A DNA stretch of 37,657 nucleotides. Source: a virus. Shown here piece by piece: positions 6,204 to 15,895 of the stretch. The position numbers and the translations under genes are program-made. A model generated the notes under the pieces. That model was not told the origin of the DNA. It saw only the letters and a program-made list of their open reading frames with translations, and ran no database searches. The stretch spans positions 1-37,657 of IMG/VR virus record IMGVR_UViG_3300043434_001186; one strand, 5' to 3'. Every line of letters begins with the position of its first letter. Positions within the stretch are counted from its first letter, which is position 1.

Positions 6204-7166
6204 ATGGCCAACACGCTTCTTGTCAAACGCACGACCGTTGCAGGCCGTGTGCCGACGACGGCACAGCTTGAAGCCGGAGAGCTTGCCGTCAATGTCCCGG
6301 ATGGCAAGCTTTACCTGAAGCAGGAAGGCGCGAGCACCGGCATTGTCGAGATTGGGCCCGTTCGCTCCGTCGCGGGGCGCGCAGGAGACGTCGCGCTGTC
6401 TGTTGGTGACATCTCCGGCGTCGCACCTCTTGCGTCGCCTGCCTTCTCAGGCACCCCGACTGCGCCTACGCCAGGTACGGCCGACAGTTCCACGCGGCTC
6501 GCCACAACCGCCTTTGTGAAGGCGCAGGGCTATGTCACGACGGCGACGGCTGGCGTGAATTCCGTCAGTGGCTCCGCCCCGATCGTCTCCAGTGGGGGCA
6601 CCAATCCATCGATCAGCATTCTCACCGCCACGACATCGGCACCAGGGTCCATGAGCGCCGCGGATAAGGCAAAGCTCGATGGCATTGCCGCCGGCGCCCA
6701 GGTCAACGTGCCAACGAACCTTGGACTATCTGGCGGCACGACCTCTGGGCCAACCATCACCTCCTCGACCGGCAGCAATGTAACCTTGCCTGCGGCCAGC
6801 ACCACGGCCTCCGGTGTTGTGACCACCGGTGCGCAAAGCTGGGCCGGGGCCAAGACCTTCACCGGGGTCGTCACGGCCCCGGACTTTGTCACCACCTCGG
6901 ACGCACGGCTCAAAACCGCGATTGCCCCCATCAGAGATGCCCTCGCCAAACTCCAGCACTTGCAGGGCGTGACGTTTGAACTGGTGGACGACCCCCGGCC
7001 GCGGATGGGACTTCTGGCACAGGACGTCCAAGCCGTCGCGCCCGAGGCCGTCATCGAGACCGAGGGCATCTTGCGCCTCGCTTACGGCAATCTCATCGGC
7101 CTCCTCGTTGAGGCCATCAAAGACCTCGCGCTTGAGGTCGATCAACTCAAGAGGACCAGCCCATGA
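6204..7166 (+). CDS. Tail fibre protein with C-terminal S74 intramolecular chaperone (second copy)
   Basis: 320 residues: fibre head (MANTLLVKRTTVAGRVPTTA), one APLASPAFSGTPTAPT module ending in LATTAFV, a segment MSAADKAKLDGIAAGAQ found in many tail fibres, and an S74 domain from about residue 228. The motif is TTSDARLK with Ser232 as the expected cleavage nucleophile, followed by GLLAQDVQAVAPEAV and AYGNLIGLLVEAIKDL. It is a paralogue of 978-1634; both carry FTGVVTAPxFV just before the motif. The ATG of the next gene overlaps its stop (ATGA). Confidence 0.85.
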   Translation: MANTLLVKRTTVAGRVPTTAQLEAGELAVNVPDGKLYLKQEGASTGIVEIGPVRSVAGRAGDVALSVGDISGVAPLASPAFSGTPTAPTPGTADSSTRLATTAFVKAQGYVTTATAGVNSVSGSAPIVSSGGTNPSISILTATTSAPGSMSAADKAKLDGIAAGAQVNVPTNLGLSGGTTSGPTITSSTGSNVTLPAASTTASGVVTTGAQSWAGAKTFTGVVTAPDFVTTSDARLKTAIAPIRDALAKLQHLQGVTFELVDDPRPRMGLLAQDVQAVAPEAVIETEGILRLAYGNLIGLLVEAIKDLALEVDQLKRTSP

Positions 7167-8077
7167 TCGCCACCGGCCTTTATGCCATCACGAATTGCGG
7201 CGTCCCGCGCCATTACGCGGTCGATGTCAAACCGGACTATGCCGGGCTTGGGGTCTTCGTGCCCGCCAGCGAAGGCGCCACCGCGGGCATGGCAGGTGTC
7301 ATGCTCTGGGCCGATCTGCGCGCCTATCTCGAGACCCCGCCCGATTTTGGCAATGCTGCAGGCTTTGTCGACACACGCCATGACGAGATCTTTGTCCCAG
7401 ACCTGCCTGGCACAGCGCATGGCGGGATCTACAAGGGGCGCTCCTACATCTTCGCCGCCGGCATGAACGGGCTTGATGAGCTCGTCGACTTCTCGCTTCT
7501 TGATGTTGCGGTGGGCCTCAATGCCCAGCCTTTGCCCTGGCGCAACCGCTTCGCCCAGACCGCCCGAGAAAAGGTCGACACCTCCTTCCGGCATCGTGCG
7601 CGCGAGCGCCTCTCCAATGCCATGGTGGTGTTCATGCCGATCGCTGCCCCCTTCGATCAAACTCGAATTGAGGTGCTTTGCGAAGGCGACCCGATCCTTC
7701 TGAATGGCACAGAGCTCGCCGGTCGAGTCCCTGATGCCGACATCCCGAAGGACGGGGTCTGGTTCAAGCAGTTCTACTTCCATGCCGTGGCAGAGGACCC
7801 TGCGGGGGAGGTCCTGCGCGTGCCCGCGGGCGGACGGGCAGAGGTTACCCTTCATCTGCGTTGGAACAAGGACGCAGCTCCTTGTGCCCATGCCATGACA
7901 CTCAAGCTTGAGAGCGATGCGGGCTATCTGCCAAGCCGGCGTCTTGCGACGGATGCGACCGGCCAGGGCCGCTTTGCGGTCGAGGCCTTAGGGCTGACGC
8001 CGAGCGAGCGCATTACCGTCAAGATCAACACCGAGCATTACACCGCGATTGGCAAGATCACCTTGGAGGTCGTGTGA
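7163..8077 (+). CDS. Phage protein of unknown function, linked to the oxygenase/radical SAM block
   Basis: 304 residues, not recognised. The N-terminal part starts MIATGLYAITNCGVPRHYA. The central part contains aromatic- and charge-rich segments, and the last 80 or so residues look like an Ig-like/Invasin-type beta domain (MTLKLESDAGYLPSRRLATDATGQGRF). There is no signal peptide or membrane segment. It overlaps both neighbours (S74 fibre at its 5' end, 2OG oxygenase at its 3' end), so it is co-translated with both. It may be a receptor-binding or fibre protein, and it is a possible substrate of the downstream modification enzymes; this is inference from linkage only. Confidence 0.6.
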   Translation: MIATGLYAITNCGVPRHYAVDVKPDYAGLGVFVPASEGATAGMAGVMLWADLRAYLETPPDFGNAAGFVDTRHDEIFVPDLPGTAHGGIYKGRSYIFAAGMNGLDELVDFSLLDVAVGLNAQPLPWRNRFAQTAREKVDTSFRHRARERLSNAMVVFMPIAAPFDQTRIEVLCEGDPILLNGTELAGRVPDADIPKDGVWFKQFYFHAVAEDPAGEVLRVPAGGRAEVTLHLRWNKDAAPCAHAMTLKLESDAGYLPSRRLATDATGQGRFAVEALGLTPSERITVKINTEHYTAIGKITLEVV

Positions 8078-8820
8078 TGGAGATCGCGACCACGAGCATG
8101 ATGCAGGCGATCTATCCTGCCTTTGTCCTGCACAAGTATTGGGACATGCCTGAGGGCTTTAATGATCGCCTTTACGCGCTGGCGAGAGAGGACACGGAAC
8201 GCAACCGCATCACGGACCCCCGAGATCCGCGCGCCTCAGGGGACATGAGCAATCACCTGGGCCATCTCCGCCACAACTTTCTGATGGACAGCAAAGATTC
8301 TGTGATCGCGATGCTGGCCCAGATGGCAGCGGCTGGGGTGCGCGAATATCTGCAGCTTGCCTACGGTTACGACCATGCCGGAGAAATCCGCATGATGGCG
8401 GACACCTTCTGGCAGCGCCGCGCGCAGCGGGAGAATCTCGGGATTCACACCCACACGCATCCCCAGACGGACATTGTCTGCACCTATTATCCGCGGGTGA
8501 TGCTGGACGAAGGTTGCCCGGACACATCGCTTCATCGCGGCGCGGTCCGATTTTATGATCCGGCGGGGATCGGCAAGCGGCTATGGCCCTGCCGGAACCC
8601 TGCGGCTTACGTTGGTGGGGGCTGGTATTCCGTAGAGCCTCAGACGGGTTCGATGGTGGTCTTTGAGGGGTATGTGCCTCATGACAGCACCTACTTCGAG
8701 GGGGAGGAGCGGATGTGCATTCCGGTCCTGTGCAACCTCGATCGTCCCAATTCTCATTGCAAGGTCGGGCTTCGCGACATTCTCGCGGCTCAAAGAGAAG
8801 GAGGCTCTCATGGCCTATAA
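8077..8820 (+). CDS. 2OG-Fe(II) oxygenase (TIGR02466-like), first of two
   Basis: 247 residues. The core follows the putative 2OG-Fe(II) oxygenase pattern: HTHTHPQTD (residues 124-132) provides the metal-binding His and an acidic position, PQTGSMVVFEGYVPHD (188-203) carries the distal His202, and ERMCIPVLCN follows with an Arg that should bind 2-oxoglutarate. Such enzymes hydroxylate proteins or small molecules using Fe(II), O2 and 2-oxoglutarate. GTG 8074 and ATG 8077 are both possible; ATG 8077 lies 7 bases after GGAGG (8065-8069) and overlaps the previous stop by one base. Its 3' end overlaps the start of the Cys-rich small gene by 11 bases, so expression is coupled. The substrate is unknown; the neighbouring Cys-rich protein or a fibre is the obvious guess. 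Confidence 0.75.
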   Translation: MEIATTSMMQAIYPAFVLHKYWDMPEGFNDRLYALAREDTERNRITDPRDPRASGDMSNHLGHLRHNFLMDSKDSVIAMLAQMAAAGVREYLQLAYGYDHAGEIRMMADTFWQRRAQRENLGIHTHTHPQTDIVCTYYPRVMLDEGCPDTSLHRGAVRFYDPAGIGKRLWPCRNPAAYVGGGWYSVEPQTGSMVVFEGYVPHDSTYFEGEERMCIPVLCNLDRPNSHCKVGLRDILAAQREGGSHGL

Positions 8821-9067
8821 GGTTGGCACCACCATTGTGATCGACGATCAGGGCTTTGTGCCGTGGTCGCGCATCTCTGGGGCACCGGCAGCAGGTTTGG
8901 TGCCGGGCGAGTACACCAAGACCGCCGCAGAATACAAAGTCGTCGGCGTGGGCAATATCTCAAGCACCGCCTATTTGGGTGTTGAATATCAGCCCGACAT
9001 GACATTCCACGATGTCTATGTGACGACCTATTCGAACTGTAATTGCAACTGCAATTGCCGGTGCTGA
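8810..9067 (+). CDS. Small protein with C-terminal Asn-Cys repeat: candidate modified peptide substrate
   Basis: 85 residues. ATG 8810 follows AGAAGGAGG and overlaps the upstream oxygenase gene; the frame also opens at 8663 but without support. The body (MAYKVGTTIVIDDQGFVPWS..., then YLGVEYQPDMTFHDVYVTTY) is beta-rich and begins like a tail-fibre segment. The last ten residues are NCNCNCNCRC: five Cys at 77, 79, 81, 83 and 85, and no other Cys in the protein. The repeat is encoded by two near-identical 12-base units (9035-9058). The gene sits directly between two 2OG-Fe(II) oxygenases and before a radical SAM/SPASM enzyme, the usual layout of a RiPP precursor with its maturases. Alternatives are a metal-binding tail tip or a disulfide/thioether-linked fibre end. 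Confidence 0.75.
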   Translation: MAYKVGTTIVIDDQGFVPWSRISGAPAAGLVPGEYTKTAAEYKVVGVGNISSTAYLGVEYQPDMTFHDVYVTTYSNCNCNCNCRC

Positions 9068-9069
9068 CG

Positions 9070-9759
9070 ATGGAGGTTCATAGCAGGAGCGTCGAGCTTT
9101 GGCCGACCCGCATCAGCTTCTTTGAGACGCCTGTCGATTGGCCGGTGAACCGAGAGCTGGCGGACGAGGCCATTGCAGAGGTTGGCTTGGGCCGAGGCGA
9201 AAAGCCTCAGCTTGGGGACGCGGTCATGGATGGACCAGGTGCGCGGGGTGTGTCACATGCCCGACTTCGGGCGCCTGAGCGCCGGGTGCGCGGCATCTTG
9301 GAAAAAAGCGCTGCCGGCCAGGCCTTGAAGTCCCATCTCTTCGCCTGCGCGCGCGCCGTGCTCGGTCCTTGGGCCCAGTATCTCGATCCCGACCATTGCG
9401 AGAACCGCGCCCTCGTCATCGAGCCCGGTGGCTTCATCTCGACCCACAAGGACAGCCGGGAGGGGGATCTCACTTGCGTGCACTTCCTGACCGGGGGCGG
9501 GGTAGGCCGGCCGGTGAACTCTGTCGGCACGCCGCGTTTTGTGATCGAGGACCCTTCGCGGTACTTCGATGAGGGGCGGCTGCCCTATGAGAGCCGCCAC
9601 GGCTACACGGTCAATCCGCGACCAGGGCTCTCAGTCTTCTTCCCCTCCCACATTCCCCACAACCAGCATCCCTACGAGGGCAGCGCGCCGCATGTACAGA
9701 TTGTCGCGAACTTCCGCGTCAATCTGCCCGTGGCGATCGAAGAAAGGCTTTTTGACTGA
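9070..9759 (+). CDS. 2OG-Fe(II) oxygenase, second of two
   Basis: 229 residues. The Fe(II)-binding motif HKD (His126, Asp128, in GGFISTHKDSREGD) is followed by CVHFLTGG, and the distal His lies in PGLSVFFPSHIPHNQHPY (His197 or His200). These are the marks of a double-stranded beta-helix dioxygenase of the prolyl/aspartyl hydroxylase class. It differs strongly from the oxygenase at 8077-8820 and is not a simple duplicate. ATG 9070 is two bases after the stop of the Cys-rich gene; the frame extends to 9043 but that would overlap the Asn-Cys codons. The stop overlaps the radical SAM start by one base. A role in hydroxylating the Cys-rich protein (for example on Asn) is inference. Confidence 0.75.
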   Translation: MEVHSRSVELWPTRISFFETPVDWPVNRELADEAIAEVGLGRGEKPQLGDAVMDGPGARGVSHARLRAPERRVRGILEKSAAGQALKSHLFACARAVLGPWAQYLDPDHCENRALVIEPGGFISTHKDSREGDLTCVHFLTGGGVGRPVNSVGTPRFVIEDPSRYFDEGRLPYESRHGYTVNPRPGLSVFFPSHIPHNQHPYEGSAPHVQIVANFRVNLPVAIEERLFD

Positions 9760-11003
9760 TGTGGTTTGATTTGACGCTGGAAGCGCGGGATGGCAGCCGC
9801 CATTCCGTCCGCTACAACCCGCACACTTCGGAATGTGAGGGGCTGCCACTGCCTGTTAACCCGGGAACCTTCGCACAGGTCGCCCGTGTGGCCAAAGACA
9901 AGCCTCTGGGCAAATCCCGTGCGCCTCGGGTGCTCAAAATCCAGCTGGGCCTGTCGTGCAACTATGCCTGCAGCTATTGCAGTCAGGCCTTCCAGATTGC
10001 GGATGCCACGGTCTCAAGGCTTGCGGATGTCGAGCACTTCTTGACCGAGCTTGATGGCTGGATTGCTCAAGGCCCGGAGAAGATCGAGCTTTGGGGCGGG
10101 GAGCCGTTTCTGTATTGGGCCAAGATCAAGCGGCTGATCCCGGCGCTGGCGGAGCGGTTCCCGACGGCAGCCTTCTCTATCATCACGAATGGGTCGCTCC
10201 TCGATCGTGAAAAGCTCGACTTCATCGCCGCGCATGACATCGCCATCACGATCTCCCATGATGGGCCCGGCCAGCATCTACGCGGGCCTGATCCGTTTGA
10301 TGATCCGGATAAGCGGCGCTGGATTGAAGCACTGCTGGCGGAGCGGCCGGGAAAGACTGGCTTCAACGCGGTGCTGACGCGGGGGAACCACGATCTCAGG
10401 GCGCTGAAGGCATGGTTCGCTGAAAAGGTCGGGCCGGACATCTTCGTGGGGCTCGAGGGCGTCGTGAATGTCTATGACGCCGCGACTGCGATCGGAACAG
10501 GGCGGTTCGAGCCCGCGGAGCTGAACAGCCTGACGTGGTCTATCTTCGAGGCGCTGGTTGAGGATCCGAACGCCTTCGGTCTCGGAGAGCGCATCAACGA
10601 GTTCTATGCCTCGATCCAGCGCCGGCGCCCCATTGAGGTCCTCGGCCAGAAATGTGGGATGGACAGCCCGGACGCCATCGCCGTCGATCTCCGTGGGCAC
10701 GTCATGACCTGTCAGAACACGGGGGCCAAGGGGGCGCACAAGATCGGTCATGTGGCGGACTTCGACGGGATCGCGCTCGACACTGCAACGCATTTTGCGT
10801 TCCGGGAAGAGTGCATGTCATGCCCGGTCGTTCAGCTCTGCAAGGGGGCCTGTATGTTCCTTGAGGGGGAGTTCTTCAAGCAAAGCTGCGCGAATGAGTT
10901 TGCGTTTAACTTCGGTGTAATGATGGCGGCGGTGTGGCATTTGACGGGGATGGTGGTGGTTGGTGCGCGTTCTTCCGTCATCTCCCGGAAAGACGTAATC
11001 TAA
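9759..11003 (+). CDS. Radical SAM / SPASM-domain peptide maturase
   Basis: 414 residues. The radical SAM cluster motif CNYACSYC (Cys67, Cys71, Cys74) binds the [4Fe-4S] cluster that cleaves S-adenosylmethionine; GGEP follows at 113-116 and the usual TIM-barrel strands (SIITNGSLLD, ITISHDGP) are visible. The C-terminal SPASM region carries seven Cys (299, 318, 352, 355, 361, 365, 377; ECMSCPVVQLCKGAC), enough for two auxiliary clusters. SPASM enzymes mostly modify ribosomal peptides (thioether or C-C links) or serve as sulfatase-type maturases. It is the last gene of the coupled block, starting on the final base of the oxygenase stop. The most likely substrate is the Asn-Cys protein at 8810-9067. 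The C-terminal 35 residues after Cys377 are hydrophobic and may have been altered at the prophage boundary. Confidence 0.85.
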   Translation: MWFDLTLEARDGSRHSVRYNPHTSECEGLPLPVNPGTFAQVARVAKDKPLGKSRAPRVLKIQLGLSCNYACSYCSQAFQIADATVSRLADVEHFLTELDGWIAQGPEKIELWGGEPFLYWAKIKRLIPALAERFPTAAFSIITNGSLLDREKLDFIAAHDIAITISHDGPGQHLRGPDPFDDPDKRRWIEALLAERPGKTGFNAVLTRGNHDLRALKAWFAEKVGPDIFVGLEGVVNVYDAATAIGTGRFEPAELNSLTWSIFEALVEDPNAFGLGERINEFYASIQRRRPIEVLGQKCGMDSPDAIAVDLRGHVMTCQNTGAKGAHKIGHVADFDGIALDTATHFAFREECMSCPVVQLCKGACMFLEGEFFKQSCANEFAFNFGVMMAAVWHLTGMVVVGARSSVISRKDVI

Positions 11004-11086
11004 CTGGCCATGAGCTGGGGACACCGCAGCTGAAAAACTGCTACAGTGTGTGCAAGCCAGTGACCTAAACGAGCACTGGGGGCGGC

Positions 11087-11170
11087 ACATTTATGTGATA
11101 ATATCATATATCAACGGATTCTACAACCAGCGGCGCAATCACGCTGCTCTCGGCTGGAAATCACCGCGGC
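11087..11170 (+). pseudogene. Remnant of an IS3-family transposase (C-terminal end)
   Basis: The + strand encodes YINGFYNQRRNHAALGWKSP, the typical C-terminal end of IS3-family OrfB transposases (the part after the last catalytic Glu). No catalytic DDE region, partner gene or inverted repeats are found around it, so it is a fragment. It sits exactly between the prophage genes and the defence operon and so marks an old insertion or recombination joint. It is unrelated to the intact element at 35990-37187, whose end reads differently ([15 protein letters not shown]). Confidence 0.65.
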
Positions 11171-11232
11171 CTCAGAACAGAGGGCTGCTTAGAATGAGGA
11201 CCCGGCCGGAACGAAACCGGTGCAGGTCCACA

Positions 11233-12975
11233 TCAAATTCCAGCCTCTGTCGTGGTCGGGTAGTCCGATGCCAGCAGCGCAGCAAGCTTCTCGCTAACTA
11301 GAGTGGTCGATCCCGGCAGGAACGGCAAGCCGCCAATCTCCACTTGGCTGATGCTCATGTAGAATTTATGGTCTCGATAGAGCGTTTCGTTCGGATACGG
11401 GAATAGCACCACTGCTCCCGACACCACTCCCTGCTTGTATGCGGTCGGTTTCATTGGATGCGGTATAGCGATGGCGTCGCGGTAGCGGTGCATCGTGTTC
11501 ACATCCTCAGTCGTTGGACCGGGACCGCCATAGAGATTAACGTAGTTGCTGTCGAATTGAATTCGATACTTTGCGTCGAAAATGTAGAGCTTGTCGTCGC
11601 TGGCAAATTGAATGACATTGTCCGGCTTCTGGGCGATAGTGGGCAGACGATTGAATAGCCGATTGTAGACTACATACAGTGGCTTGCCTGTTTGCTTGTG
11701 GGTAAATCGCATCGCCGATGATTTGCCCTTTGACAAGGCCACTGTAGTTCGCAACCTGTTGACTTGGACCACCGTTTGCTCTTCGAGGTCGAAGCGTTCC
11801 CTTAACAGGCCGACGATCTTCAAAAAACACCAATACTCATAGAGAAGTGACGTTTCCTTCATGCCGATGGGGACGATATTCCCTGCGAACGACAGGCCGC
11901 CATTGAGCAATCTGCACAGCTTTTCAAAGCGCGAATACAACGGGTGCTTGTAGAAGACCATTGAATCGGGTCGTGCGGGCGTGACTTCAGCGACCTGCCG
12001 AAGGAATGGGCTTCGAAGCACCGATTCAATCTTCCGTTCCATGCCCTTCAATGTTGGGCGGATGGAGTCGAAAAACTTCTTCTCCGAGTAGCGGTCCGCA
12101 TCCTCGTCGCCGGATTCATCTATGCTTGAAAGCATGCGGATGTTTCTATGGGTAGCCTTGATCAACGCCTTAAAGTAGCGGTTTTCGGGCGTATCGAACG
12201 TTGGCGAGGAAACGCTCTCGTGGATCCTTAGTGGCAATGCGACGCCAAGGCCTGGGATGGCCGCGCCGCCGTTTTGCCGTCGCAGTGCTCGGCTGATCGT
12301 TTGCCTCGACACCCGGCGAGCACGTTCCGTATCCACCGACACTGGATTACGAACCAAGCCGCTATGGGGGCTCTTTGTTATTCCGTTCGTGAGCCTAATA
12401 AAGTCGTCGAAATGCCCTTGCAATAGGGCGAACCACTCGACAAGGGTCGGGTAATGATCCTTCGCGGGTGCAGCCAGTCCAAAGGTCTTCGCATTAGCAG
12501 CCATTGCTAAATTACGAAGCATCGCTGATACATCATCCCGCATGGCTACGTAATCGGTTCGATAGTCAGCCTTGCGCGAGAAGACTTCGAGCCGAAGTTG
12601 CGCCGATCCACTGCCTGTCTTGATTGCGATGTCGGCAAAGCCGACGTTATTGCCGAAGTTTAGGTGGTGGTGTTCAGAACCGGCTCGGATACGTCTGGCT
12701 TCGGCGCCGGGCGGGAGTATCAGGGTTGCCGACGGATCAAGCTTCTCGAAGTGGATGTCGTAGGCTACGGCCTCGAAGAACAGAGGTTCGATCAAGTCGC
12801 CCGCCGCCACAGGCAGCATGCGATTAGACTTGGCGTCATGCCGTTCCATGCAAACGACGCCAACGGTGATGATGGCAGATTTGGTGACGCTTGAGATGAA
12901 GGCGGGCAGCTCGGGCCGCTTGCCAATGATTTCGAGATTCCAGCCTTCTCCGGATGCTTGCAGCAGCAATGGCAC
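11233..12975 (-). CDS. DUF2357/PD-(D/E)XK nuclease-like protein, McrC-position partner
   Basis: 580 residues. The middle and C-terminal parts match the DUF2357-plus-DUF524 type protein found as the partner of McrB-like GTPases: LLYEYWCFLKIVGLL is the typical helix before the nuclease fold, and KLYIFDAKYRI supplies the Asp-x-Lys of a PD-(D/E)XK active site. By analogy it is the nuclease or DNA-contacting subunit activated by the AAA+ ring encoded just upstream. GTG at 12975 directly follows the McrB stop with no gap, so the two are coupled. The N-terminal 100 residues are beta-rich and probably recognise DNA or the partner. It is the last gene of the operon. Confidence 0.75.
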   Translation of the reverse strand: MPLLLQASGEGWNLEIIGKRPELPAFISSVTKSAIITVGVVCMERHDAKSNRMLPVAAGDLIEPLFFEAVAYDIHFEKLDPSATLILPPGAEARRIRAGSEHHHLNFGNNVGFADIAIKTGSGSAQLRLEVFSRKADYRTDYVAMRDDVSAMLRNLAMAANAKTFGLAAPAKDHYPTLVEWFALLQGHFDDFIRLTNGITKSPHSGLVRNPVSVDTERARRVSRQTISRALRRQNGGAAIPGLGVALPLRIHESVSSPTFDTPENRYFKALIKATHRNIRMLSSIDESGDEDADRYSEKKFFDSIRPTLKGMERKIESVLRSPFLRQVAEVTPARPDSMVFYKHPLYSRFEKLCRLLNGGLSFAGNIVPIGMKETSLLYEYWCFLKIVGLLRERFDLEEQTVVQVNRLRTTVALSKGKSSAMRFTHKQTGKPLYVVYNRLFNRLPTIAQKPDNVIQFASDDKLYIFDAKYRIQFDSNYVNLYGGPGPTTEDVNTMHRYRDAIAIPHPMKPTAYKQGVVSGAVVLFPYPNETLYRDHKFYMSISQVEIGGLPFLPGSTTLVSEKLAALLASDYPTTTEAGI

Positions 12976-14463
12976 TTAGGCACCCCAGTAACGAGTTGAT
13001 CCGTCGAGCTTCAAGATTTCGCTCATGCGCGAAACTTTTTGGTGACTGCGCTCAAGCGGACCAGCGAATTCCGATCCGACGCCGGGAGCTGCAACGGCAG
13101 TGTGCGCCGGTGCTTGCAACCACGCGGCTAGCTTGTTCAAGGCATCGGCAAGTACTTCCCCGCTTCCCGACACCTTCGGCAAGACCTTTTGCAGGATACA
13201 GAAGTCCAAAGCCGCACACCCAGCCATGATGTCGGACAGGCCCAATTGCCGCCAGAAGTGCAGGTAAAGCAGGATCGCGTCGCGCGTGCGGTAGCCAAAC
13301 TTGATCCCCGCGGGTGATAGGATGTCTTGGATCTCGCTTAGCTGTTGGGCGATGTGCTCAAACAGTTCCTGATTAACAGCACGCGCTTCCAAGACCGAAA
13401 TGGCGTTGGCAGGATTAATGACGATGTTCGAGAGAATTTCAAAGGTCGCCGATCCAGCGGCCGCTCCAGATGCGAAGGAATTCAGGTCCGGATCGTCGAA
13501 TTCGATGGTGAATGCTCTGTCGAGAACCTTTGGGCTAAACGAGTGAGTGGTCTCGTCCATATTGGCTGTTCCTATCACGCGCAGATTCGACGGAAGCTCA
13601 ATGCCGCGCAAGTCCGCTTCGGGGTCTGCTTGTCCTGTGCCGGGGACTGCGGGCAACTCGATGGGCAACGGGTCAGAACCGATCCGCGTTTCCTTGCGTT
13701 CTCGAGATTCCGCAACGCTGAGGTAGTCGCTGAAATAATGCTCGACTGGCGCGAGGTTCATTTCATCAAGAAGCGCAATCACCAGCTTGTCTGGGTGATA
13801 GTGTGCGTCCCGAAGAGCCATAATCAGTTTGCCCTCGACAAACTTGGTGGGCGAGAGGGTTGGAACGAAGCCAAACAGGTCGCTGTTATCCGACCATTGA
13901 GGTTGAACAGGAATAGGGTGGAACTTCGAGTTGGTGCGCTTGGCGAACTTACGAGGTAGCAGACTTTTGCCCGTTCCTGAAATCCCGGAAAGGATCACTA
14001 GTGGACTGACCGTCATCGCCAAAAAGAAGTTGGCGAGCTCGGCAACCGAAATCAGATAGCCCTCAGCTTCCATGGTTTCTTGCATGGCTTTCAAAGCTTC
14101 GCTTGAGCTCAAAGCACTGGAAGCCGGATCAGTCCCTGCAGGAGCCGCCACCAACACCGCGGTCGTGGGCGCTGTCGTGCCATGGGCAGGCACAAGTCGA
14201 GGACCAAACTCATAGAGATTGGTGGTGCTCCCCGCTCGCGGACCGGACTGAGCCCGCGTCTTCGCGCCGGTATCGCGCAAGTAGCCCTCCTTTACTAGAC
14301 GCTTAGGCTGGTGCGGCTTCTTCGTGGACAGAATTTGGTAGTTCTCCGGAACCTGTTGCCAGATGGCATCGGGCGGGAAGCGGTGATCTGGGCCGAACTG
14401 TTCCAACATCGACTCCAACGCCGTGACTGCAAGGTCGTGAATTTCGTCGTTGTCCGTGATCAT
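12976..14463 (-). CDS. McrB-like AAA+ GTPase of a McrBC-type restriction system
   Basis: 495 residues. N-terminal about 150 residues: a winged-helix/DNA-recognition-type domain plus a low-complexity Ala/Pro/Thr linker. The AAA+ core has Walker A GISGTGKS (160-167), Walker B VIALLDEMN (228-236), the McrB-type sensor GTANMDET (298-305) and LDRA with an arginine-finger candidate (about 316). McrB proteins form GTP-driven rings that move DNA to the McrC nuclease and cut modified DNA. Start ATG 14463 has AGGAGG five bases upstream; the frame runs to 14580 but overlaps the methyltransferase there. A methyltransferase in the same operon is unusual for a strictly modification-dependent enzyme and suggests protection of self instead. 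Confidence 0.85.
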   Translation of the reverse strand: MITDNDEIHDLAVTALESMLEQFGPDHRFPPDAIWQQVPENYQILSTKKPHQPKRLVKEGYLRDTGAKTRAQSGPRAGSTTNLYEFGPRLVPAHGTTAPTTAVLVAAPAGTDPASSALSSSEALKAMQETMEAEGYLISVAELANFFLAMTVSPLVILSGISGTGKSLLPRKFAKRTNSKFHPIPVQPQWSDNSDLFGFVPTLSPTKFVEGKLIMALRDAHYHPDKLVIALLDEMNLAPVEHYFSDYLSVAESRERKETRIGSDPLPIELPAVPGTGQADPEADLRGIELPSNLRVIGTANMDETTHSFSPKVLDRAFTIEFDDPDLNSFASGAAAGSATFEILSNIVINPANAISVLEARAVNQELFEHIAQQLSEIQDILSPAGIKFGYRTRDAILLYLHFWRQLGLSDIMAGCAALDFCILQKVLPKVSGSGEVLADALNKLAAWLQAPAHTAVAAPGVGSEFAGPLERSHQKVSRMSEILKLDGSTRYWGA

Positions 14464-14482
14464 GCTTCCTCCTGATGTCGTG

Positions 14483-15895
14483 CTACTTTTTACGTTTGGA
14501 TGTCGCGGAGCGTGCATCGAGTTGGGCTGCCAAGTGCGTTGCGATGGCCTGCGACAAGTTGGGTGGAACCGCTTCACCAATCATGTCCATGCCGATGCCC
14601 ACGCGAGCCGTGTCGTTGTCATTGGTCATCGAAGTGACAAAGCGAAAATCGTCGTCAAACGACTGCAAGCGAGCGGCTTCACGCATCGTGATGCCGCGCA
14701 GTTCCGTCGGGTGCGAGAAGCGGCCTGATCCAAGAAAGTTGGCGTTGGCGGTAATCGTCAGGGCCGGAGAGTCCCAAGCCAGCCGCGTATAGGCGCTCCA
14801 GTAGTAGTCGCGATAAAAAACCGGGTTGATCGAACCTGTTCGCTCAAGATTGATTTGTGCCTGTTCTTCGCTGACGTCATGGGCCTTTGCATATTTGGTG
14901 ATGGCGCGGGCGTATTTCACTCGCATCCGCTCACTCTCTGAATCCCAAGTCTGGCCTGGCCGCATTTGTTCGATGATGTCGAGCACTGACTTTTTGTAGC
15001 TACGAGTGATGTGATTGAAGGGAAACGCCGTCTTGCTTCGCATGGAGCATGCGTAGGCGCTGGGTTCACTATCATAGAGAGCAATGTCGTGTCCGCCTAG
15101 AGAATCAGCTGCGAGGGGGGGGGCGGGCAAATCGCCAATGGCTTCCCTTACCGTGACCCATGGCAAACGGCCTTCCCTTAACAAAGCCGAGTTTTTGGGG
15201 TCGACATGGCTGGGATTTGGGAGTGATGCCGGACCAATAGAACTGGCAATAAATATCGCCCGTTCGCGAAGTTGGGGTACGCCGTAATCTGCACAATTCA
15301 CAACAGCAACCTCGACCTTGTAGCCCAAGTCTGTCTCAAGCATTTTTATGACGAGTTCGGAAAGCTTGCCCAAACGCCCATCAAAGCCGTGGTTGAGCAT
15401 TTGCGGCACGTTCTCGATCACCAAGAACTTGGGGCGCAAAGCTTCGGCGACTTCCAGATACCGCAGAACCAGATCGTTGCGAGGGTCGTGAGCAAGCTGG
15501 CTGTATCCGCTGAACTTGACAATCTTTCCCTGTTCGCGGTGCTCATTGCGTCGAAGTTGTGAGAAACCTTGGCAAGGCGGGCCGCCAATCATGCAGTCGA
15601 GGTCGCCCTTGCCTATGCCACGTTCCTTCAAAGCATCGTGAATTGTTTGTACGTCCAAGAGGCGAATGTCTTTGCGAACAGTCGCGGGAGGCATGTCGTC
15701 CCAAGCATGGTTGAACTCGAATGTTCGGAGAGCTTCATTCTTGACATCATTGCCGAACGCGACATTGAACCGTCCAGAACGAGTGAATCCTCGGGACGTC
15801 CCGCCGCAGCCGCAGAAGAATTCAGCCAGTGTGTATTTTTTTGAGGTCATGGGCTGTGTTGATACCAAACGGTGTTGCGGTGAAGAATTATTCAT
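14483..15895 (-). CDS. DNA cytosine-5 methyltransferase
   Basis: 470 residues with all main C5-methyltransferase motifs: motif I FFCGCGGTSRGF near the start, motif IV GGPPCQGFS with the catalytic Cys108, motif VI ENV (161-163), motif VIII QLRERAIF, and motifs IX/X (MREAARLQSFDD, IGMDMIGEAVPP). The target-recognition region lies at about 200-380, so the recognition sequence cannot be read. The start shares a base with the stop of the upstream gene (TAATG, 15897-15893). A run of nine C in the coding strand (15115-15123 as G on +, codons 258-261) lies between catalytic motifs and target domain and could make the gene phase-variable. Its job is probably to mark self DNA for the McrB/DUF2357 pair. 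Confidence 0.9.
   Translation of the reverse strand: MNNSSPQHRLVSTQPMTSKKYTLAEFFCGCGGTSRGFTRSGRFNVAFGNDVKNEALRTFEFNHAWDDMPPATVRKDIRLLDVQTIHDALKERGIGKGDLDCMIGGPPCQGFSQLRRNEHREQGKIVKFSGYSQLAHDPRNDLVLRYLEVAEALRPKFLVIENVPQMLNHGFDGRLGKLSELVIKMLETDLGYKVEVAVVNCADYGVPQLRERAIFIASSIGPASLPNPSHVDPKNSALLREGRLPWVTVREAIGDLPAPPLAADSLGGHDIALYDSEPSAYACSMRSKTAFPFNHITRSYKKSVLDIIEQMRPGQTWDSESERMRVKYARAITKYAKAHDVSEEQAQINLERTGSINPVFYRDYYWSAYTRLAWDSPALTITANANFLGSGRFSHPTELRGITMREAARLQSFDDDFRFVTSMTNDNDTARVGIGMDMIGEAVPPNLSQAIATHLAAQLDARSATSKRKK

Follow-up and report, generated by a model that had tools for sequence, protein, structure and literature searches.

The closest described relatives of the system considered here are CteB/SCIFF and the NxxC-type ranthipeptide synthases, which combine a radical S-adenosylmethionine (SAM) core with a SPASM domain and have a Cys-rich substrate. 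In the ranthipeptide NxxcA, Cys23 is joined to Asn20, and QhpD, the SPASM maturase of quinohemoprotein amine dehydrogenase, installs Cys-Asp/Glu thioethers in a protein instead of a free peptide, according to the passages of PMC8326336 on these enzymes. Alternating residues of metal-ligand type have been described at the tip of a phage fibre, since HxH pairs hold iron in T4 gp37, as stated in the portion of PMC11705849 that deals with them. The nearest report in print concerns pelagimyophages, in which radical SAM cassettes lie in the host-recognition cluster (PMC7029224, passages on these cassettes). The passages concerned, of that source and of those on phrog_1802, the PHROG to which our enzyme also belongs, connect the enzyme with neither a Cys array nor a fibre substrate. 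Moreover, no description of a Cys-array fibre paired with a radical SAM enzyme was found in the open-access literature, which alone was searched. Here we report such a pairing in the IMG/VR virus record IMGVR_UViG_3300043434_001186, positions 1 to 37,657, a stretch of 37,657 nucleotides that is called the window below. The cassette of interest spans positions 8077–11003 and follows phage tail genes. We give a probability of about 60% to the reading that it is a phage fibre-tip modification system, in which the radical SAM enzyme would act on a Cys/Asn array and form thioethers, with decoration by oxygenases and a rigid tip as the result.

Four open reading frames (ORFs) are confirmed on the plus strand of this region, with the overlap of 11 bases and the gap of 2 that a sequence-only reading of the DNA had claimed. 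They encode a putative 2-oxoglutarate (2OG)-Fe(II) oxygenase of 247 aa (oxygenase 1, 8077..8820), an 85-aa fibre-like protein that is the predicted substrate (8810..9067), a second putative 2OG-Fe(II) oxygenase (oxygenase 2, 9070..9759) and a radical SAM/SPASM enzyme (9759..11003). The 85-aa protein ends in SNCNCNCNCRC, and its C-terminal array NCNCNCNCRC (9035..9064, plus strand) is the predicted modification site.

The association of array and enzyme was followed in both directions. Starting from the array, viral contigs (2.9 million according to the description of the tool) were scanned for DNA able to encode NCNCNCNC, ignoring the enzymes. At least 120 stretches were listed, and the counts on this side hold among these listed matches. 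The motif is C-terminal, which here means at most 70 residues before the stop of an ORF that has 60 aa or more, in 96 of them, and for 75 of these 96 the same strand has an ORF matching the profile of the enzyme at E ≤ 1e-3; most of the matches are far better than this threshold, and a few, of the T4-like type, are weak. The enzyme is lacking at 21 C-terminal loci; the downstream DNA is shorter than 4 kb in 19 of them, and L098 and L123, which make up the rest, are short ORFs resembling chance occurrences. For the 24 other occurrences of the motif (off-frame, short or internal), the enzyme is present in two, both being in-frame arrays with more protein after them. Fisher's test of C-terminal against other occurrences gives 3e-10, a nominal value because many contigs are related.

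Starting from the enzyme, a profile made from seven enzymes confirmed at least 564 relatives, and the best 80 were used, which gave 55 new loci outside the close quartet type. An ORF with C.C.C.C is present on the enzyme strand in 39/55 of these loci and on the opposite strand in 2/55. Counted per ORF, the frequency is 44/2472 on the enzyme strand versus 2/2933 on the opposite one, and 1/7416 for shuffled ORFs. Adding L025, L026 and two Achromobacter phages makes a set of 59 loci (L025 and L208 are one contig, as are L026 and L211, so that both contigs count twice), with a full array in 43. When at least 3 kb of upstream DNA is available, as is the case for 47 of the 59, the full array is found in 39 loci, and in six of the eight others the Cys tail is shorter or of a variant type: NCNCDCRD (L198, L206), NCNCNCRD (L224), a Tyr-Cys repeat (L211/L026) or an irregular tail before a Hint-like sequence (L194). 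The sequence-only reading had said that it would be undermined by enzymes occurring mostly without the Cys protein; given enough flanking DNA, an enzyme without a Cys tail is rare. The genetic pairing of the array fibre with one radical SAM/SPASM family across many unrelated phages is thus strongly supported, and this association also lends support to the earlier proposal of a peptide-maturation architecture inside a tail operon, with the Cys-rich tail component as the likely substrate.

The pairing is also what tells against another explanation, in which the array is a metal or disulfide needle like the HxH one of T4 gp37 and the enzyme targets the host surface, another virion protein or a small molecule. 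Iron bound at HxH sites has been described for fibre tips (PMC11705849, in the part on them), and CxC could bind metal unmodified. However, this explanation does not account for why unrelated array fibres mostly carry the enzyme, and vice versa, and we consider it unlikely. The arrays also differ from T4 gp37 in having Cys in place of His, in lying usually at the extreme C-terminus and in their linked enzymes; no HxH motif is present in the 85-aa protein of the window.

The proteins that carry the array are diverse. Arrays were counted in 150 enzyme-bearing loci, where 171 array-bearing ORFs give 128 nonredundant arrays. Once the array is removed, the 171 ORFs fall into 19 groups without BLAST similarity at 1e-5, one of which (L195) is perhaps off-frame. 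Several carriers are fibres by Pfam or PHROG, with collagen repeats, S74 or tail-fibre families. The end of the array lies within 15 residues of the C-terminus in 107 of the 128 nonredundant arrays, and a Hint-like sequence, recognised by eye, follows it in 10 of the other 21. The array fibre of Achromobacter phage JWF (PJWF_00028), with its NCNCDCNCNCSC end, has a Hint domain that passes the Pfam cut-off (PF05203, 47.5 bits versus 32.1); those of L204, L244 and L228 score below it. In L218, the S74 match begins two residues past a long Lys-Cys array. Hint and S74 are both domain types that cut themselves off, so after self-cleavage the mature protein would end with the array. In L043, L130 and L222 the array is neither C-terminal nor placed before a Hint-like or S74 domain. 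As a separate observation, the ORF before the enzyme in L195 (142-447), the one that is perhaps off-frame, has HVHVHV followed by CTCTCTC, an HxH-like run joined to a CxC run.

These carriers bear on the idea that the cassette makes a free toxin or bacteriocin of the ribosomally synthesized and post-translationally modified peptide (RiPP) class, a moron parked behind the tail genes. A small gene next to peptide-maturase-like enzymes is what such a cassette would have. Nevertheless, the array of many relatives belongs to a larger protein that has collagen, S74 or Hint parts, and no exporter or immunity gene was seen among the neighbour-cluster representatives viewed, although no search was aimed at exporters, proteases or immunity genes. 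We regard this idea as highly improbable. Judging by its relatives, the 85-aa protein, for which a free peptide or toxin had been suggested, looks more like a very short fibre. Neither does the cassette always follow S74 fibres, a point that the sequence-only reading had put forward as a check: the gene orders of the loci and the family scans of array carriers reveal that this is not always so.

Among the close relatives, 26 small proteins (window included) share an N-terminus MAYKVG[TS]TIVI, these first 11 residues being kept with a single T/S exchange, and a tail NCNC...CRC, with a variable middle. A scan with the enzyme of the window returned 28 viral-contig loci as nearest relatives, and 25 of them, a few cut by contig ends, keep the order immunoglobulin (Ig)-like protein, oxygenase 1, array protein, oxygenase 2, radical SAM enzyme; the remaining three are two distant variants (L025, L026) and a fragment (L029). 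Sixteen further loci come from species genomes, of genera such as Thalassovita, Marivita, Nereida, Thalassobius and Thalassobacter, which we take to belong to Rhodobacterales. The whole set is present in 10 of these 16 (the first gene of L157 is cut by a contig end), and the other six have just part of the enzyme, some being cut by contig ends. The enzyme is rare in alphaproteobacterial genomes (2/385 in the class and 7/394 in the family, the centre genome being counted in both), and this scarcity fits a mobile element. Roseobacter genomes also have incomplete copies of the enzyme gene that lack the full cassette (L159, L163, L164, L165, L166, L252, L255, L258); these are probably what remains of prophages, or pieces truncated where a contig or locus ends.

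The radical SAM/SPASM enzyme of the window passes the cut-offs of Radical_SAM (PF04055, 42.3 bits versus 29.5) and of TIGR04085 (29.4 bits versus 27), and matches phrog_1802 with 6.9e-52. In 33 aligned sequences, the window included, C67 and C71 of the CxxxCxxC motif are invariant and C74 is kept in at least 90%. The SPASM seven-Cys pattern is CX(9-15)GX4C...CX2CX5CX3C...C, and it is matched by C299-X13-G313-X4-C318, C352-X2-C355-X5-C361-X3-C365 and C377. These residues are invariant in the same alignment, which bears out the earlier claim of a seven-Cys SPASM domain. The structure model has a predicted local distance difference test (pLDDT) score of 91, and CteB is its closest solved fold (Z 23.2 over 355 residues), followed by ChlB (22.2), the anaerobic sulfatase-maturating enzyme anSME (21.0) and TigE (18.1). 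A check for an N-terminal RiPP recognition element (RRE) found short strands (E3-8, E14-20, E25-27) before the barrel in the model, and the fold alignment with CteB starts at residue 1.

The likeness to anSME suggests a different chemistry, in which an anSME-like or Cys-oxidising maturase would turn the array Cys into formylglycine or another oxidised group, and the carbonyls would fasten the fibre to the surface of the host. By sequence as well as by fold, SPASM region included, anSMEcpe ranks with the best matches, and the JWF copy of our enzyme is annotated as a sulfatase-maturating enzyme. However, anSME has an extra Cys between the first two SPASM Cys, which completes its first auxiliary cluster, and the enzyme profile has no conserved Cys there. 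The NCBIfam anSME model gives 35.8 bits versus a cut-off of 349, the arrays look unlike the sulfatase target motif, and no sulfatase is found among the window proteins scanned or in the gene tables of JWF and 2-1. In the passages of PMC8326336 on the auxiliary clusters, one cluster of CteB leaves a site open towards the active site, whereas the clusters of anSME and SuiB are fully ligated. The absence of an anSME-type Cys, as in the thioether enzymes with an open cluster site, favours thioether over formylglycine chemistry without proving it, and we give the oxidising alternative a low probability.

Another alternative is that the radical enzyme epimerises alternate residues, in the polytheonamide manner, to give a D,L helix that the oxygenases would hydroxylate. 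Pairs of radical SAM enzymes and 2OG oxygenases do occur in the polytheonamide-type pathway. The strict two-residue period of the array agrees with it, and EpeE (YydG) appears as a weaker match. EpeE is, however, well under CteB (Z about 14 versus 23.2), and a beta-strand with one Cys face would equally give a period of two residues; we consider epimerisation improbable as well.

Coming back to thioether formation, the NCNC array can be read as successive N-x-x-C units that overlap, the spacing being that found in NxxcA (PMC8326336, passage on NxxcA). A [ND]xxC unit is present in 123 of the 128 nonredundant arrays, a set that was partly selected for Asn; in the enzyme-driven set, which was not, the residues at the array positions are Asn (51%), Asp (15%) and Ala (15%). 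The best reading of these sequences is that the enzyme would act on the array. With less assurance, we infer that Cys sulfur would be joined to Asn or Asp, in the manner of NxxcA, and that the oxygenases would hydroxylate the array or its surroundings. We are least sure of the architecture, in which inward Cys of a trimeric fibre, by means of cross-links and/or metal, may form a rigid tip that touches the receptor. The proposed sequence of events is that the fibre trimer would form first, and the radical SAM enzyme would then modify the alternating Cys/Asn end, probably with Asn/Asp-to-Cys thioethers. Some phages may also have the array end decorated by an oxygenase or a flavin halogenase-like enzyme, and in some a Hint or S74 domain would depart. 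Every second side chain of an extended strand faces the same way, and thus the Cys would line the inside of the trimer, where cross-links, metal or both could give a stiff distal tip in contact with the host receptor.

A number of observations weigh against this reading. The favoured chemistry and the virion location are predictions from genes, and many contigs are related, so that the association counts are not independent events. The 85-aa protein has no Pfam family above cut-off and no PHROG or NCBIfam match, hence no recognised fibre domain, and the array carrier of L213 has no match in Pfam or PHROG either. L218 and L222 have long Lys-Cys arrays, with up to 27 repeats, in which the array position is not Asn/Asp; together with the frequency of Ala in the enzyme-driven set, they leave the acceptor residue unsure. 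L219 and L220 have the enzyme with no array within 7.5 kb, and L250, a genome locus with an enzyme relative, has none in the 3.4 kb examined. In the comparison with NCBIfam maturases (best 25 of 53 families), the cut-offs of the named families are not reached (PapB 66.5 versus 340, nif11 63.3 versus 518.7), and we therefore do not call the enzyme a member of a named family. Finally, the fold scores of CteB (23.2), ChlB (22.2) and anSME (21.0) are close to each other. The system also differs from the described synthases: unlike in CteB/SCIFF and the ranthipeptide systems, the proposed substrate is a phage fibre C-terminus instead of a leader-core peptide, the genes lie in viral tail operons and the scores are far under the NCBIfam cut-offs. 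The QhpD model (TIGR03906) is among the better-scoring ones, but with 47.4 bits versus a cut-off of 453, and QhpD has another substrate and another context.

As regards the composition of the cassette, the sequence-only reading took the quartet as the unit. Judging by the relatives, this needs correction: the reading omitted the usual companion, an Ig-like partner protein of 304 aa ('upB', 7163..8077, plus strand), which matches no named family. Besides, the constant pair is the array-tipped fibre and the radical SAM enzyme, as oxygenases are missing beside many relatives. The single-linkage cluster that contains the 304-aa protein is present in 116 of 172 enzyme-bearing loci, where the usual order is array fibre, Ig-like protein, zero to three oxygenases and radical SAM enzyme. 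The model of the 304-aa protein (pLDDT 81) has an Ig-like sandwich of the invasin/intimin type at residues ~205-304. The likenesses of this very common fold include intimin, invasin and a phage neck protein among many others, and the fold-match tables are filled by this C-terminal domain and not by the first 200 residues. The protein may belong to the virion or assist in assembly. From its gene onward, the junctions are an overlap of 1, an overlap of 11, a gap of 2 and an overlap of 1; this tight spacing as far as the radical SAM gene fits a single transcription unit. AAGGAGG precedes the ATG of the gene for the 85-aa protein.

Oxygenase 1 passes PF13759 (29.9 bits versus a cut-off of 27) and matches phrog_81; its residues H126, H128, D132, H202 and R212 are invariant in 26 sequences, with H126xH128 rather than HxD. 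Oxygenase 2 stays below the same cut-off (16.4 bits, E 0.012) and matches phrog_81 with 3.3e-05; HxD (H126, D128), H194, H197 and R216 are invariant in 26 sequences. Among the oxygenase clusters whose representatives were scanned, five match PF13759 or PF13640, mostly slightly below cut-off, and a sixth (cluster 15), labelled by eye, has no Pfam match; dropping it leaves the conclusion unchanged. In 43 enzyme-driven loci with 3 kb upstream, the partner protein is present in 29 (two of its three clusters having been assigned by eye) and an oxygenase in 19, whether or not the sixth cluster is counted. A quick tree was made of 80 dereplicated enzymes, some rows being partial or long-branched; along it the oxygenase label switches 9 times according to parsimony, and at least 5 times according to well-supported branches (8 and 6 without the sixth cluster). 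Since they are missing beside many relatives and were gained or lost at least 5-6 times on this tree, the oxygenases of the window are accessories to the more basic pair of array fibre and enzyme. A small clade, into which the Lys-Cys arrays fall, has a tryptophan-halogenase-like gene instead of the oxygenases, as in L218, L219, L220 and L222; the Pfam test of a halogenase member, that of L076, gives 105.8 bits, the gene of L076 being downstream of its enzyme. Separately, a small conserved protein of ~70-90 aa with no Pfam family lies directly before the enzyme in 14 loci (for example L213, 6732-7001).

Two cultured phages, Achromobacter JWF and 2-1, have both an array fibre and the enzyme. 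The enzyme matches in cultured phages amount to 23 records: 15 from Campylobacter, five from Erwinia and three from Achromobacter phages. In Campylobacter phage CP220, the sole cultured phage examined outside Achromobacter, no (xC)3 array occurs in 12 kb around the enzyme. A tblastn search with the small protein, one T4-like array protein and one Ig-like protein gave no match in cultured phages. The matches of the enzyme in faecal phages are weak. Some contigs that look T4-like (L038, L044, L079, L103) have a short protein ..HTH.F.DDY.T.CNCNCNC.. together with divergent radical SAM genes, up to four of them in L038.

The genes upstream of the 304-aa protein are tail genes by Pfam and PHROGs, namely a J-like protein, S74 fibres and other fibre-like proteins. 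Its direct neighbour is a tail fibre with a C-terminal Peptidase_S74 chaperone domain (6204..7166, plus strand; PF13884, 52.4 bits; PHROG tail families). At the other side, 24 flanks (within L002-L163) were compared by eye, which places the approximate right end of the prophage within the radical SAM gene, at 10955..10965. The common similarity breaks off around the LTGMVVVG codons, with which the enzyme gene draws to its end, in the window near 10963, and thus the last residues of the enzyme are seemingly supplied by the neighbouring DNA. The DNA past this point belongs to several unrelated classes, some of them common to two or more loci (L017, L154 and L159; L152 and L155; L003 and L006), and some contigs end there. 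The several classes could correspond to several integration sites; our claim is limited to the common end point. The differing DNA after the enzyme had raised the idea of a Mu-type transposable prophage, which was rejected because flank classes are shared by several loci and a relative has a serine recombinase. This is a large serine recombinase (PF00239, PF07508) adjoining a DUF2924 gene at the other end of the relative (L261, 2067-3389 and 3386-3940, both minus strand). PF09299 had no match in seven records, and the control was likewise without match. Beyond the prophage end, the window has a DUF2357 and PDDEXK_7 protein beside an AAA_5 protein (11233-14580, minus strand), a couple that resembles a McrBC-like restriction pair, and at ~11050-11200 a remnant that reads like a transposase C-terminus, FYNQRRNHAALGWKSP, which we take to be of an IS3-type transposase.

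The enzymes of this cassette are of known kinds, and what is new is their target and setting. As far as we know, virion proteins are usually regarded as unmodified gene products, save for cleavage and glycosylation. A wider form of the proposal is that many tailed phages have a covalently cross-linked tip, perhaps between the three chains of the trimer, with decoration by oxygenase or halogenase and exposure of the tip through self-removal of Hint or S74; we hold this form to be possible but doubtful. The boldest form, that the tip is a ribosomally encoded metal chelate, a siderophore mimic docking on the iron-uptake receptors of the host, is a guess. The proposed tip modification is directly testable, because the cultured phages JWF and 2-1 carry the array fibre and the enzyme. 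If it is true, and such a tip-modifying cassette is common, the models of receptor binding would change. Moreover, orphan radical SAM and 2OG oxygenase genes of phages would be explained, and new protein-stapling enzymes would become available. Tip modification, if confirmed, may merit a category of its own.

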